Assembly: GCA_947462105.1 (NCBI GenBank)
Contig: CANHNJ010000003.1
Span: 1-64,000, forward strand
DNA: 64,000 nt
Origin: Alphaproteobacteria bacterium
Lineage (GTDB): Bacteria; Pseudomonadota; Alphaproteobacteria; Micropepsales; Micropepsaceae
Direction of reading: 5' to 3'
A program made the position numbers and the translations under genes. Shown here piece by piece: positions 2,632 through 61,336 of the stretch. Every line of letters starts with the position of its first letter. Within the stretch, counting starts at the first letter, position 1. Under the pieces are notes generated by a model. That model searched no databases. It had not been told where the DNA came from and was given only the letters and a program-made list of their open reading frames with translations.

Positions 2632-3519
2632 GTGTCCGCCGCGATGAACGAAGACCTGAAAAACCGCGCCCGCACCTGGTTCGAGACGTTGCGCGACCGG
2701 ATCGTGGCCGATTTCGAGGCGCTGGAGAGCCAGGCGCCCGCTTCGCTCTATCCCGGCGAAGCCGGGCGTTTCACCAAGACGCCGTGGCAGCGCGCCAAGG
2801 GTGAGAATGGCGAAGACCAGGGCGGCGGTGTGATGGGCATGATGCGCGGCCGTCTGTTCGAGAAGGTGGGTGTGCACACCTCGACCGTACACGGCCTGCT
2901 CTCGCCCGAATTCGCCAAACAGGTGAAGGGCGCGGGCGAACAGCGCCTGTTCTGGGCCAGCGGCATGAGCCTGATCGCCCATATGCGCAATCCGCGCATC
3001 CCCGCCGTGCACATGAACACGCGGATGATCGTCACCACGGAAAGCTGGTTCGGCGGCGGCGCCGACCTCAATCCTACCCTGGATGCGGCGCGCAATGAGG
3101 CGCATCCGGATGCGGTCACGTTTCATGCCGCGCTGAAGGATGCCTGTGACGGCTTCGACGCCGCCTTCTATCCGAAGTACAAGCAGTGGGCCGACGAGTA
3201 TTTCTGGCTGCCCCATCGCGGCGAACCGCGCGGCGTCGGCGGTATCTTCTATGACCATCACAACAGCGGCGACTGGGATCGCGACTTCGCCTTCACGCAG
3301 GGCGTCGGCGAAGCCTTTCGCAGTATCTATCCGCAGATCGTGCGCGACCGCATGACCGAAAGCTGGACCGACGCCGAGCGGCACGAACAGGCCAAGTGGC
3401 GCGGCCGCTATGTCGAGTTCAACCTGCTCTATGACCGTGGCACCACCTTCGGCCTCAAGACCGGCGGCAATGTCGAGAGCATCCTGTCTTCCATGCCCCC
3501 GATTGCGGAGTGGGCATGA
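2632..3519 (+). CDS. hemF: Oxygen-dependent coproporphyrinogen III oxidase
   Basis: HemF converts coproporphyrinogen III to protoporphyrinogen IX by two oxidative decarboxylations using O2, late in heme synthesis. The 295-residue protein has the family blocks GGGADLNP (about 141-148), [14 protein letters not shown] (about 195-208) and, near the C-terminus, [19 protein letters not shown]. The chosen start is GTG 2632 because AGGAGG lies nine bases upstream. An ATG four codons later (2644) is possible. The stop overlaps the hemC start (ATGA), so the two heme genes form a coupled pair even though they act at separate pathway steps. Confidence 0.97.
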
Positions 3520-4448: not shown

Positions 4449-5627
4449 CTAGTCGACTCTGAATCCAGGCTTCAAGGCCACCAGATCGGTCGTCAGATCT
4501 TTGACGCTGTTGGCACCCAGGAGCTTCATGGTGCGCACCAGGTCGGCCTTCAGGATTTCCAGCGCCCGGTCCACGCCGGCATCGCCCGCTGCCGCCATGC
4601 CGTAAGCATAGGCGCGGCCGACCAGCACCGCTTCCGCACCCAGGCACAGTGCCTTGGCGATGTCGCCGCCGCGGCGGATGCCGCCGTCGAAGATGATGGT
4701 GGTCTTGCCCTTCACGCGTTCGACGATGCCCGGCAGCACGCGCAGGCTGGCCGCCACGCTGTCGAGCTGGCGCCCGGCATGGTTGGAAACAACGATGCCG
4801 TTGGCGCCCATATCCACCGCACGCTGTGCGTCATCGGCCGTCATCACGCCCTTTATGACGATGGGACCGTCCCAGCTTTCGCGAATCCATTGCAGGTCGT
4901 CCCAGCAGACATGGGCATTTTCCAGCGCACGGCCGACATCGGTGGCGACCAGCGGGCCGGTCTCGGTGACGACATTGGGCAGGCCGGGCATGCCGCCATC
5001 CAGCAGGAAGCGGAACAGCCAGCGCGGATGCATCATAATTTCCGGCACATAAGGCAGCTTGGGCAGCAATTCCTTGCCCATCAGCGCGCGCATGCCGTTG
5101 CGCGGATCGCGCTCGCGGTTGCCCGCCACCGCCGTGTCGATGGTGACGAACAGGCCACGATAGCCCAACGCCTTGGCGCGGGTGAAGGCGCGCTTGGTCG
5201 CCTCGCGCCCGCCCATCAGGTAAACCTGGAAAAAGACCTTGTCGTTCTGCTCGCGCACTTTTTCCAGCGGATGGCCGGAGATGGTGGAGAGGATATAGCC
5301 GGTACCGGCGCGCCTGGCGCCGCCCGCGCCCGCCAGCTCGCCGCGCGGATGCAGCATGCGGCTATAGCCGATGGGCGACAGGATCGCGGGCATGGCAAGA
5401 TCAACGCCCAGCACGCTGGTCGAAAGGTCGGGGGCCGTCATCACCGCCTGACGCGGCTTGAAGATCACTTCGGAGAAAGCGGCGACATTGTCCTTTGCCG
5501 TGATCTCGTCATCGGCGGCGCCGTCGAGATAATCGAAAGCGGCGTTGGGCAGACGGCGGCGCGCCAGGGCGCGCAGGTCGGCGATGTTGACGATATTGGG
5601 CGGCTGGAGGGATTTGGGCGTGGACAT
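4449..5627 (-). CDS. FMN-dependent alpha-hydroxy-acid dehydrogenase (LldD-like)
   Basis: The 392-residue protein is a complete member of the (S)-2-hydroxy-acid oxidase/dehydrogenase family, which oxidises lactate- or glycolate-type acids with FMN in a TIM barrel. The active-site signature SNHAGRQLD (281-289, catalytic His283) is intact. So are the FMN-phosphate-binding region DGGIRRGGD (about 314-322) and VGRAYAYG. Substrate is uncertain; L-lactate dehydrogenase is the usual annotation. The gene at 1-176 is a paralogue with a related leader. It probably shares a transcript with the hydrolase gene upstream, which ends 57 bases before its start. Confidence 0.92.
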   Translation of the reverse strand: MSTPKSLQPPNIVNIADLRALARRRLPNAAFDYLDGAADDEITAKDNVAAFSEVIFKPRQAVMTAPDLSTSVLGVDLAMPAILSPIGYSRMLHPRGELAGAGGARRAGTGYILSTISGHPLEKVREQNDKVFFQVYLMGGREATKRAFTRAKALGYRGLFVTIDTAVAGNRERDPRNGMRALMGKELLPKLPYVPEIMMHPRWLFRFLLDGGMPGLPNVVTETGPLVATDVGRALENAHVCWDDLQWIRESWDGPIVIKGVMTADDAQRAVDMGANGIVVSNHAGRQLDSVAASLRVLPGIVERVKGKTTIIFDGGIRRGGDIAKALCLGAEAVLVGRAYAYGMAAAGDAGVDRALEILKADLVRTMKLLGANSVKDLTTDLVALKPGFRVD

Positions 5628-5684: not shown

Positions 5685-6626
5685 TCAGGGCGCGGCTTTC
5701 GCGGCGATTCCCAGCACCCAGGCGGCGATATCCTCGATGGGCGCGGCCCGGCCCAGGTCGCGCAGCAGCATGTGATAGCCGGCCGCGTATTGCTTCACCG
5801 TGGCGCGGCTGCCCAGGCCCGCGATGACGGCCTCGGTGGGGCGGGGCGGAATGATCTGGTCCTTTGCACCATAGGCGAAAAGAAGCGGCGGCGTTTCGGC
5901 AAGCCGTGCGGGCGCGCTACGGGCCTCGTCCATCAGGTTGGTCAGGCCGAACAGCACATCGGAACGGGTGCGCCGCTGCACCAGCGGGTCGCGCGCCATC
6001 GCACGCAGCATCTCGATATTGTCCGACGGCGTGATCGTGACGACGCGGGATGCGGCGCTGTTGTTCAGCACCAGCCCCGGCAGCAGCCGCGCCGCCAGGA
6101 ACAGCGCCACGCGATAATAGAATGGCATGTCGGCCCGGGACCAGACGGCAGGCGCGACCAGAACTGCGCCTTTTACATCGAGCTTCTGTTCCAGCGTGGT
6201 GAGCGCCACCGCTCCACCCATGCTTTCGCCCAGCACGAAGACCGGCACATCTGGGTAGGCCGTTTTCACCGCCGCCACCGCATCGCGCAGGTCGCCCCGC
6301 ATGGTCTCTTCGCCAGCCCACAGGCCGGGATTGGGCGCACGGCCGAAACCGCGCTGGTCATAGGCGATGGTGAGGATGCCGCGCCCTGCCCATTGCGCGC
6401 CCGGCATGGCGAAGGCGTTGGCGTAATCGCTCATGCCATGCAGGGCGATGATGATGGCTTTGGGTGCTCCCTCCGGTGTCCAGCGCCGCACCGGCAGCAC
6501 CAGGCCATCGCGCAGCAGCAGCATATCGCCTCGCAGGGACGGCAATGAAGGTGAAGCGCCCTGCGGGGCCGTCATGGGGGCACAGGCGGCCAGCACCAGG
6601 GCAAGAAGCAAGGCAAGACGTTTCAT
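5685..6626 (-). CDS. Alpha/beta-hydrolase lipoprotein (lysophospholipase/monoacylglycerol lipase type)
   Basis: The protein starts with a lipoprotein signal peptide and a lipobox LAAC (Cys15), so it should be anchored in the envelope. The alpha/beta-hydrolase fold is shown by the oxyanion segment ALHGMSDYA, the strand IAYDQRGFG, the nucleophile elbow GESMGG (Ser135), and a late aspartate and histidine (GAKDQIIPP and AAGYHMLLRD). This arrangement is closest to PldB-type lysophospholipases and monoacylglycerol lipases. The exact substrate is not shown by sequence. Confidence 0.88.
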   Translation of the reverse strand: MKRLALLLALVLAACAPMTAPQGASPSLPSLRGDMLLLRDGLVLPVRRWTPEGAPKAIIIALHGMSDYANAFAMPGAQWAGRGILTIAYDQRGFGRAPNPGLWAGEETMRGDLRDAVAAVKTAYPDVPVFVLGESMGGAVALTTLEQKLDVKGAVLVAPAVWSRADMPFYYRVALFLAARLLPGLVLNNSAASRVVTITPSDNIEMLRAMARDPLVQRRTRSDVLFGLTNLMDEARSAPARLAETPPLLFAYGAKDQIIPPRPTEAVIAGLGSRATVKQYAAGYHMLLRDLGRAAPIEDIAAWVLGIAAKAAP

Positions 6627-6649: not shown

Positions 6650-6730
6650 CGCGGCCCTTCGCTTACGCTCAGGGCGTTCGTCGCTCGAAATGGTCCACCG
6701 GACCATTTCGTCAGCCCAAGGGCTGACCGC
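6650..6730. repeat. Dispersed palindromic repeat, family A, copy 1
   Basis: This intergenic element matches, in inverse orientation, the element at 20385-20466. It holds a perfect 10-bp stem (6687-6696 with 6700-6709, 3-base loop) and a second hairpin (GTCAGCCC with GGGCTGAC) next to it. Both stems differ from copy 2 by paired, compensatory changes. It lies between the lipoprotein hydrolase and the PAS-protein gene. Confidence 0.8.
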
Positions 6731-6736
6731 TTCTCA

Positions 6737-7261
6737 CTATGCCGTAGCAGCCTCGCGCATGACCAGTGCCGTCACGATCAGGATGTGGTCCACCACATCG
6801 TCTTCGCCCAGGGGCAGGACGGCGTTCTCGTGATAAACGAAGGCGGCACCTCGCATGTCGTTGCCGACCCAGCCGCGATAGCCCAGCGGATCGCCGCTGG
6901 CGCGCACCATTTCGTAAAGCATGCGCAGGCCCAGGCCAAACCTGGGCGCGGTCTGGATGATGTCGGAAAGACGGCGGCCGGTGAAATCCTCGTCGAACGC
7001 CTTGGTCAGCTCTTCGCCGACTTCGCGATATTGATAATCGGCGCCGCCATCCAGCACCTCGACCAGCAGCATGTTGGTGCGCATCTGCGGCGACAGGCAG
7101 GAGACCAGCGAGGCGCGGCCGGGAAAGCGCTGGTCGCGCTTCAGCGAGCGCCAGTAGGAAATGCCGGTGCGCACCAGTTCGGCGTCCAGACGCTCGATGG
7201 CCACGATATCGCCACGCGATTCGGCGGGCAGGCGGGGATCGGTGGTAGCAGACAAAGGCAT
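6737..7261 (-). CDS. PAS-domain protein (PAS_5 type)
   Basis: The 174-residue protein matches the alphaproteobacterial PAS_5 pattern. An N-terminal helix is followed by WRSLKRDQRFPGRASL, then a PAS core with DYQYREVGEEL, GRRLSDIIQ and a late strand GAAFVYHENAVLPL, and it ends with HILIVTALV. No output domain is attached, so it is a stand-alone sensor or binding protein. In this group such proteins are often of unknown function. It is transcribed away from the repeat at 6650. Confidence 0.75.
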   Translation of the reverse strand: MPLSATTDPRLPAESRGDIVAIERLDAELVRTGISYWRSLKRDQRFPGRASLVSCLSPQMRTNMLLVEVLDGGADYQYREVGEELTKAFDEDFTGRRLSDIIQTAPRFGLGLRMLYEMVRASGDPLGYRGWVGNDMRGAAFVYHENAVLPLGEDDVVDHILIVTALVMREAATA

Positions 7262-19659: not shown

Positions 19660-19901
19660 AGCGGCCTCCGCGAGGGATAGGGGGTGATTCCCCGGAAAGC
19701 GGGGAGTTATCGGCCTTTGCCTTGCCCGAGACAAGTTGCGCCCGCGTGACATCCGTCATGCATCACTCTCCCGACTCTTGTGGACAAGGGCTAGCGGCAC
19801 CCCTGCAAAGCTTGTGCGGCGCAACCGGAGCGGTACGATATGTGGTGGCTGGGAGCCCGGCGCGAGTCGCAGGCCGGGAACCGCCGCCAAGAGGCTGGCT
19901 T

Positions 19902-20381
19902 ATGGAGCTTTCGCAAATGACACAGGCAGGCTGGTCTGATGACCGGGTTGAGCAGCTGAAATCCCTCTGGACCGAGGGCCTTTCGGCCAGCCAGATCGCC
20001 CGCGCCCTGGGCGGCGTCACCCGCAATGCCGTGATCGGCAAGGTCCATCGCCTGGGCCTGGCCGGCCGCGCCAGCCCCGCCCGCGCCGACCGCCCGCGCC
20101 TGCCGTCCGCCCCCAAGGCGTCGACCCTGCGCAACGACATGCCGCCCGCCGTGGTGGTCGAGGAAGATCCGCTGCAGCTGGAAGACGGCAACTTCGCCAC
20201 CGTACTGACCATCAGCGACCGCATGTGCCGCTGGCCGATCGGCGATCCCGCCGCCACCGAGTTCCATTTCTGTGGCCGTGGCCCCAAGGCCGGTTCGCCC
20301 TATTGCGAGGCCCATGCCCGCAAGGCCTATCAGCCGCAGCAGGCCCGCCGCGACAAGGGCAACGGTAGGATGACGGGGTGA
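19902..20381 (+). CDS. gcrA: GcrA cell-cycle regulator
   Basis: GcrA is the alphaproteobacterial cell-cycle activator that works with sigma-70 at CcrM-methylated promoters. The N-terminal helix-turn-helix is diagnostic: WSDDRVEQLKSLWTEGLSA then SQIARALGGVTRNAVIGKVHRLGL. The C-terminal RNA-polymerase-binding part has CRWPIGDP and the FCGR and YCEAH cysteine/histidine motifs. Two starts are possible. ATG 19902 follows AAGAGG by seven bases, and ATG 19917 follows GGAG by nine bases and gives the usual family N-terminus. A GANTC site (19773-19777) lies upstream. Confidence 0.95.
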   Translation: MELSQMTQAGWSDDRVEQLKSLWTEGLSASQIARALGGVTRNAVIGKVHRLGLAGRASPARADRPRLPSAPKASTLRNDMPPAVVVEEDPLQLEDGNFATVLTISDRMCRWPIGDPAATEFHFCGRGPKAGSPYCEAHARKAYQPQQARRDKGNGRMTG

Positions 20382-20384
20382 GAC

Positions 20385-20466
20385 GCGGTCGGCCGAAAGG
20401 CCGACGAAACGGTCCACTGGACCGTTTCGAGCGTCGAACGCCCTGAGCGAAAGCGAGGGGCCCGAG
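20385..20466. repeat. Dispersed palindromic repeat, family A, copy 2
   Basis: The element starts four bases after the gcrA stop. It contains a 7-bp GAAA-loop hairpin (20388-20394 with 20399-20405) and a 10-bp hairpin (20406-20415 with 20419-20428), then the shared tail ending near CCCTGAGCGAAAGCGAGGGG. It matches the reverse complement of 6650-6730. Where stem bases differ between copies the partner base differs too. Confidence 0.8.
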
Positions 20467-20503
20467 AGCTGCTCGCCACAAGCGCCGTCGCATATCTCAG
20501 TAT

Positions 20504-20537
20504 AAAAAGCTGGATTCCCGCTTTCGCGGGAATGACA
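20504..20537. repeat. Dispersed palindromic repeat, family B, copy 1
   Basis: An 8-bp stem (20514-20521 with 20526-20533) and a 4-base loop are preceded by AAAAAGCTGG. The reverse complement matches 61303-61336, including the CCAGCTTTTT flank. It ends eight bases before the glutathione peroxidase start. Confidence 0.7.
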
Positions 20538-20544
20538 ATGCGCC

Positions 20545-21007
<463 letters not shown>

Positions 21008-21024
<17 letters not shown>

Positions 21025-53639: not shown

Positions 53640-53712
53640 GCTGCGGACCTATACGGGTCGCGGGCCACGCCTCCCCAACGAGGTGCTATCATTCTGGAAG
53701 GAATGAACCGCT
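53640..53712 (+). promoter_or_regulatory. Structured serC leader (candidate alphaproteobacterial serC motif)
   Basis: The leader has a 6-bp hairpin with loop CCCAAC (53668-53673 with 53680-53685), then a second perfect hairpin TCATTC...GAATGA (53689-53694 with 53701-53706) whose loop and 3' arm hold the ribosome site GGAAGG. The serC ATG follows six bases later. This resembles the serC leader RNA described for alphaproteobacteria. Opening of the second hairpin would control translation. Confidence 0.5.
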
Positions 53713-61302: not shown

Positions 61303-61336
61303 GCTGTCCCCGCGAAAGCGGGGACCCAGCTTTTTA
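61303..61336. repeat. Dispersed palindromic repeat, family B, copy 2
   Basis: An 8-bp stem (61306-61313 with 61318-61325) with GAAA loop is followed by CCAGCTTTTT. It matches the reverse complement of 20504-20537, and two stem positions differ in both arms in a compensating way. It lies at the end of ispA. Confidence 0.7.

Follow-up and report, generated by a model that had tools for sequence, protein, structure and literature searches.

We found that the window, by which we mean the whole 64,000-nt stretch of alphaproteobacterial DNA analysed here, carries two copies of a repeat of about 90 nt that has a covarying fold, is asymmetric between its strands, is present at some orthologous sites and absent from others, and begins with a conserved GGGTGAG that carries or abuts the stop codon of the upstream gene. 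A structure in the 3' untranslated region (UTR) of the upstream message would fit this fold, strand, and register. Our preferred reading, to which we assign a probability of roughly 0.4, is that the element may be a portable RNA structure that protects the upstream message at its 3' end, its function being inferred. A repeat whose conserved end also supplies the stop codon of the host gene, and does so in one register even in distant families, would be a rare instance of a mobile sequence specialised for gene ends. The two copies, their parts as delineated with a covariance model of the element (R1), and the adjoining genes are as follows.

20376-20465, + strand: copy B, whole element (R1 match, 100.4 bits, E = 6.5e-18)
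20379-20381, + strand: TGA stop codon of gcrA, element positions 4 to 6 of copy B (sequence, gene model, GcrA domain PF07750)
20382-20386, + strand: copy B outer stem, 5' arm, pairing with 20431-20435 (folding, covariation)
20388-20405, + strand: copy B hairpin 1 (folding, covariation)
20406-20428, + strand: copy B hairpin 2, 10 bp, apex TCCACTGGA (folding, covariation, gcrA orthologs)
20431-20435, + strand: copy B outer stem, 3' arm (folding, covariation)
20440-20461, + strand: copy B hairpin 3, with a symmetric GA/GA internal loop (folding, covariation)
6650-6739, - strand: copy A, whole element (R1 match, 97.4 bits, E = 2.8e-17)
6737-6739, - strand: TAG stop codon of the gene upstream of copy A, element positions 1 to 3, immediately before TGAG (sequence, gene model)
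6710-6727, - strand: copy A hairpin 1 (folding, alignment A2)
6687-6709, - strand: copy A hairpin 2 (folding, alignment A2)
6654-6675, - strand: copy A hairpin 3 (folding, alignment A2)
19863-20381, + strand: gcrA, encoding the GcrA cell cycle regulator, ending in copy B (PF07750, E = 8.9e-48)
6737-7255, - strand: gene ending at copy A, with no match in the Pfam scan (gene model)
5685-6626, - strand: alpha/beta hydrolase gene downstream of copy A (PF12146, E = 1.2e-49)
20545-21024, + strand: glutathione peroxidase gene downstream of copy B (PF00255, E = 7.2e-42)

A preliminary description of this DNA had recognised the two copies as a palindromic pair in opposite orientation, and they are indeed 84% complementary over 85 nt in a gapless alignment. 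The paired base changes that it pointed out are real: C35-G49 in the 10-bp stem of hairpin 2 of one copy is T-A in the other, and G16-C27 in hairpin 1 is likewise replaced by A-T (columns of alignment A2). On the element strand, each of the two copies folds better than all of 200 dinucleotide shuffles (z = -6.05 and -4.32). The copies were also thought to be intergenic, which is nearly so, except that the TGA of gcrA lies inside copy B and the TAG of the gene at 6737-7255 lies inside copy A. Elsewhere in the window, a second palindromic repeat with a ATTCCCGCTTTCGCGGGAAT core occurs at 20503-20540, just after copy B, where it is terminator-like on the minus strand, and at 61309-61336; a serC leader motif (Rfam RF00517, 52.6 bits) lies at 53658-53710 on the plus strand; and positions 1-153 are 77% identical to positions 5443-5595, 5.4 kb away, the latter stretch lying near the start of a minus-strand open reading frame (4449-5627).

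Model R1 comprises 89 positions with 29 pairs in four helices, in which hairpins 1 and 2 are closed by the outer stem as a three-way junction and are followed by hairpin 3. Alignment A2 was assembled from 105 extracted copies, reduced to 84 by a length filter and hand-listed removals (the six odd loci L024, L049, L109, L110, L112, and L121) and then to 63 diverse copies by a 90% identity filter. Across these 63, standard pairs make up 90.4% of the pair cells, and 20 of the 29 pairs show changes on both sides, with 171 such cells against 43.0 (standard deviation, 8.5) in shuffles; the covariation score is 0.250 against 0.092 in shuffles. None of 500 shuffles reached any of the five observed covariation measures, and sliding the pairing by 1 to 3 columns abolished the signal, the score falling to between 0.030 and 0.068. 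The earlier proposal of a structured family with a preserved fold is thus strongly supported by the comparison with both shuffles and slid pairings. The 100% pairing of hairpin 2 in A2 is in part a product of selection, since the loci from genome contigs were picked by an exact hairpin-2 pattern. The orthologs of gcrA and of the gene at copy A (locus A) were found by protein search and not by hairpin pattern, and among the former (nine rows, after removal of a tenth that was a second copy outside gcrA), pairing holds in 53 of 56 hairpin-1 cells and 83 of 90 hairpin-2 cells. The apex of hairpin 2 in these orthologs, mostly TCCAGTGGA or TCCGGTGGA, is constant and its stem variable, with 87 compensatory pairwise differences and 44 that involve an unpaired state. 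At the second and third pairs of the outer stem, 67 of 163 copies have GA over GA, which would correspond to tandem sheared G.A pairs; another 16 have AA over GA, and Watson-Crick pairs take their place in at least 48.

Departures from pairing in the stems are lopsided. There are 82 G.T mismatches against 36 A.C mismatches (binomial p = 2.8e-5, a value that is indicative only, as alignments were fitted to the model, namely A3, A4, A7, A8, and A9, and copies are related) and 218 G.A against 25 T.C. These asymmetries point to folding of a single strand, namely the one that is sense for the upstream gene.

The preliminary description had made its proposal depend on whether a covariance model would find further copies in the genome and its relatives and whether these would keep the pairing; R1 found more copies in both, and the pairing is kept. 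In the source genome (2.17 Mb), the model gave 14 matches. They mark 13 separate places, 10 with E <= 1.7e-6 and 3 less significant (4e-4 to 2e-3), the last match being hairpins 1 and 2 of copy B read on the reverse strand. Matches at E <= 1e-5 were recovered in 36 of 96 genomes of the family, the source included, with up to at least 45 copies per genome (45 candidates having been scored in each); these 36 fall in two of seven genera, and all but one are in the window's own genus. The order-level sample consists of the identical 96 genomes. Evenly sampled genomes of the class gave 10 matching out of 385, and a sample of the phylum gave 30 out of 349, each including the source and each a lower bound because few candidates were scored per genome under strict filters; the 30 are all of the same class, a figure from which we draw nothing on other classes. 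A scan of genome contigs with the exact hairpin-2 pattern yielded 90 loci, and among the 80 listed, the titles name alphaproteobacterial groups, with two reading Proteobacteria without a class. A plasmid search with a consensus query recovered 17 records (16 from Rhizobium and 1 from Neorhizobium) with one place each, the 16 Rhizobium plasmids carrying the element once at one transporter locus. The same query found no match in a phage collection, and an origin from phages was rejected on that ground. Two loci stand apart in other respects: one from another alphaproteobacterial family has three tandem copies (L289, 718-968, minus strand; genome G714), and another (G046:C36:13615-13703) is the only copy in its genome, lies at gcrA, and is nearest to copy B, which could reflect transfer of the locus.

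The relationship to stop codons was examined with gene ends from a purpose-written codon-usage gene finder, RefSeq genes being used for the plasmid loci only. We counted 159 distinct copies, and in 132 a same-strand gene ends at the element or to its left; in 51 of these 132, the stop of that gene coincides exactly with the TGA or TAA of the element itself, and in another 7, it directly precedes this triplet. The overlapping share is 32% (51/159), whereas random hits on noncoding TGA, GTGA, TGAG, or GTGAG sites would give 8 to 14% (binomial p = 7e-9, tested against 14.1%). Where the stop is overlapped, the gene has GGG as its last codon in 30 of 51 cases; among other genes, this was so in 7 of 400. 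At 8 of the 10 stronger places in the source genome (E <= 1.7e-6), the upstream stop ends at element position 2, 3, 6, or 7. The RefSeq coding sequence ends at position 6 in all nine fetched Rhizobium records with the whole element, where the gene encodes a sugar-transporter binding protein, as it does for a tripartite-transporter binding-protein gene of Neorhizobium and for queF on another R. leguminosarum plasmid; in R. johnstonii 3841, the register is kept although most of hairpins 2 and 3 is deleted. In a set of 25 copies from other alphaproteobacterial families and Rhizobium plasmids (26 matches minus one, overlapping in part with the main count), the offset is 6 in eight and 3 in one. 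No fixed gene offset was found at the right end of the 159 copies, and only two of them lie inside a predicted gene. We file this register as a new feature of the element relative to described repeats; a literature search brought up, in the accessible portions of the sources, no description that we recognised of a stop-codon-anchored repeat of this kind. At three loci (L175, L068, and L117), a sequence ending in ..GTCGAAGGG, like the arm of another repeat, adjoins the left edge of the element and shares its GGG.

In the copies with the stop at position 6, the outer stem begins at the first base after the stop codon. By analogy with REP sequences of E. coli, which are reported in the accessible parts of two studies to cause stalling when they lie within 15 nt of a stop codon (PMC5082802, PMC12306157), such a stem might act on translation by stalling terminating ribosomes; many copies are not at a stop codon, and we regard this as unlikely. 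Nor do the strand asymmetry and the gene-end register follow from a double-stranded site acting at the DNA level on replication or chromosome structure, for which the CIR repeats linked to CcrM methylation would be the model. GANTC does stand at the apex of hairpin 2 in 10 of 11 Rhizobiaceae rows of alignment A5 (by eye), as is described for CIR (PMC2229807, in the part available), yet it occurs at the apex in only 2 of 84 copies tested, and we consider a DNA-level role improbable.

The genes around the element are varied. It lies between convergent genes in 57 of the 159 copies and has an antisense gene on its left in 37 (29 of arrangement '--' and 8 of '-+'); one Rhizobium copy sits between divergent genes, for a 3-oxoacid coenzyme A-transferase and an IclR regulator, and the Rhizobium operon copies lie between the transporter binding-protein gene and its permease gene. 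In a Pfam scan of 49 of the 51 upstream genes (leaving out those of 45 aa at L102 and 66 aa at L108), the families were diverse, with no enrichment of a functional class beyond the GcrA orthologs (4/49), and a shared class of upstream genes was rejected as the common factor. That the element is a factor-independent transcription terminator is very improbable: three gcrA loci that R1 does not match (L200, L206, and L207; by eye) do have a hairpin with a T run shortly after the stop, but no T run follows hairpin 3, the Rhizobium copies are inside an operon, and a scan of 20300-20700 for a GC hairpin followed by a T run found none at copy B, the sole terminator-like site being the palindrome at 20514-20533 on the other strand.

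Orthologous sites with and without the element indicate that it has been gained or lost at fixed positions. At gcrA, R1 matches the 3' end of the gene in 10 of 30 loci (one of the 10 being truncated where its contig ends). GGG is the last codon in all 10, against 5 of the 20 without a match. At locus A, three relatives carry the element (G000, G077, and G043) and five lack it (G034, G054, G039, G060, and G069); in the latter, an apparent start of the next gene comes immediately after the stop. Between G000 and G077, a single compensatory change, G-C to A-T, separates the stems of hairpin 2; in G077, the frame of the gene extends into hairpin 1, and the model alignment shows the element complete there. 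In the Rhizobium operon, eight element-free records were fetched out of 80 holding the gene; the last codon is GGC in seven of these eight, and GGG in nine of nine filled sites against one of eight empty ones. In R. johnstonii 3841, little of hairpins 2 and 3 is left in the copy, so that the element is dispensable there. A smaller relative of the element, consisting of GGTGAGGAGC, a four-base loop, GCGACGAACG, and a hairpin resembling hairpin 3, lies beside it in the Rhizobium transporter spacer (L228, about 3180-3260; also L233, L234, L243, L244, L245, L249, and L250); read by eye, it has neither hairpin 1 nor hairpin 2, implying that the family is a mosaic.

Such gains and losses would be fitted nearly as well by the main rival of a 3'-UTR barrier, a purely selfish nonautonomous mobile element whose fold serves its own transposition and which targets TGA-like sites, insertions elsewhere having been purged. 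The patchy presence among the family and class samples and the filled and empty orthologous sites are consistent with it, and filled loci end in GGG as if the element had brought its GGGTGAG along. Set against these are the stop-codon share, which exceeds the null for TGA-type sites, and the paired stems kept at orthologous loci across diverged species. Neither a target duplication nor terminal inverted repeats, the marks of a MITE, could be made out in comparisons of filled and empty Rhizobium and gcrA loci, where the right flank itself is changed at the Rhizobium loci and junctions are blurred. A transposase partner was also not found. Inspection for a RAYT-type enzyme, proposed in the preliminary description, gave no match to Y1_Tnp (PF01797) in the source genome, and among the relatives, the domain is rarer where the element is common (3 of 29 genomes with at least 5 copies, against 29 of 67 others; Fisher p = 0.0019). 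We rate a purely selfish element as somewhat less probable than the barrier.

Under our preferred reading of a 3'-end barrier, a structured family of about 90 nt would have spread over evolutionary time among alphaproteobacterial genomes, settling mainly at the 3' ends of genes, where its GGGTGAG carries or abuts the upstream stop and the rest of it would become the first part of the 3' UTR of that gene. The presence of the stop codon within its first bases suggests that it probably acts at the ends of mRNAs. The folded form would then be RNA, a sense-strand three-way junction of hairpins 1 and 2 and an outer stem, which GA over GA often closes, followed by hairpin 3, and might protect the upstream cistron from 3'-to-5' exonucleases and set it apart from the next cistron. 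Such a role is drawn by analogy with REP sequences in E. coli, which, according to the accessible part of the source, obstruct 3'-to-5' exonucleases to the benefit of the upstream cistron (PMC5082802). Speaking for it are the covariation, the strand asymmetry, the stop-codon register, the binding-protein/permease layout in Rhizobium, in which such barriers are known, and the compensatory changes by which the gcrA and locus A copies keep their stems paired. Against it count the diversity of upstream genes, the convergent, antisense-left, and divergent copies, which make a 3'-UTR role less direct, the 44 gcrA differences with an unpaired state, the degraded 3841 copy, and the fact that a strand-specific fold also fits a single-stranded DNA transposition intermediate. 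We hold it doubtful that the family is a class of mobile elements that inserts precisely at stop codons, supplies the stop, and installs a portable folded 3' UTR on unrelated alphaproteobacterial genes. The gcrA locus and the Rhizobium sugar-transporter operon are ready test sites with natural versions with and without the element, which would allow a direct test of the long-standing question of whether repeats of this sort are selfish or functional.

Finally, we compared the element with known systems. Rfam gave no match at or above the gathering score at the element; the sole subthreshold one (DUF3800-XI, E = 0.14) lies outside it, and no known family was assigned. The Rhizobium-specific intergenic mosaic elements (RIMEs; reportedly described by Osteras et al. 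in 1995), said to be about 108 bp with two large palindromes, are alike in size, intergenic location, palindromic nature, and occurrence in Rhizobiaceae. RIMEs are expected on pSymA and pSymB of S. meliloti, whereas R1 under strict filters has no match on either megaplasmid, and identity with RIME is not favoured on this basis. The Br-REP1 and Br-REP2 repeats of Bradyrhizobium also lie in 3' UTRs, Br-REP1 among three palindromes, but the published consensus CCGGAATCTCGAGATTCCGG, as given in the accessible part of the source, is unlike that of the element (PMC5082802). REP sequences and BIMEs with RAYTs are extragenic and palindromic, as the element is, and its GTGAG foot recalls their GTAG/GTGG foot; as far as the accessible description goes, a REP is a short single palindrome, usually in >100 copies (PMC2817692), in contrast to a multihairpin unit of about 90 nt with four helices and 13 places in a genome devoid of a Y1 transposase. 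Of the REP-type or structured-RNA family first proposed, the structured family therefore stands, and a REP in the strict RAYT sense was rejected on the missing Y1_Tnp, the negative association, and the unit size.

The closest described kind, which the element resembles by description and not by sequence comparison, is that of the CIR repeats, reportedly described by Chen and Shapiro in 2003. The preliminary description knew of no name for the family, and a kind to which it can be likened does exist in these Caulobacter CcrM-associated intergenic repeats of alphaproteobacteria (PMC2229807, PMC10969869; accessible parts). Both are intergenic and alphaproteobacterial, CIR being about 100 to 110 nt with two hairpin arms and a linker, and the Rhizobiaceae copies of the element share with CIR the GANTC at the apex of hairpin 2 (PMC2229807, in the part available). 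They differ in that GANTC is nearly absent from the element copies tested and in that the three-way junction, the third hairpin, and the stop-codon register are features of the element that the accessible CIR descriptions do not mention. Should the element and CIR prove to form one superfamily, the CcrM site may have been added to CIR in a particular lineage and not be part of its core.
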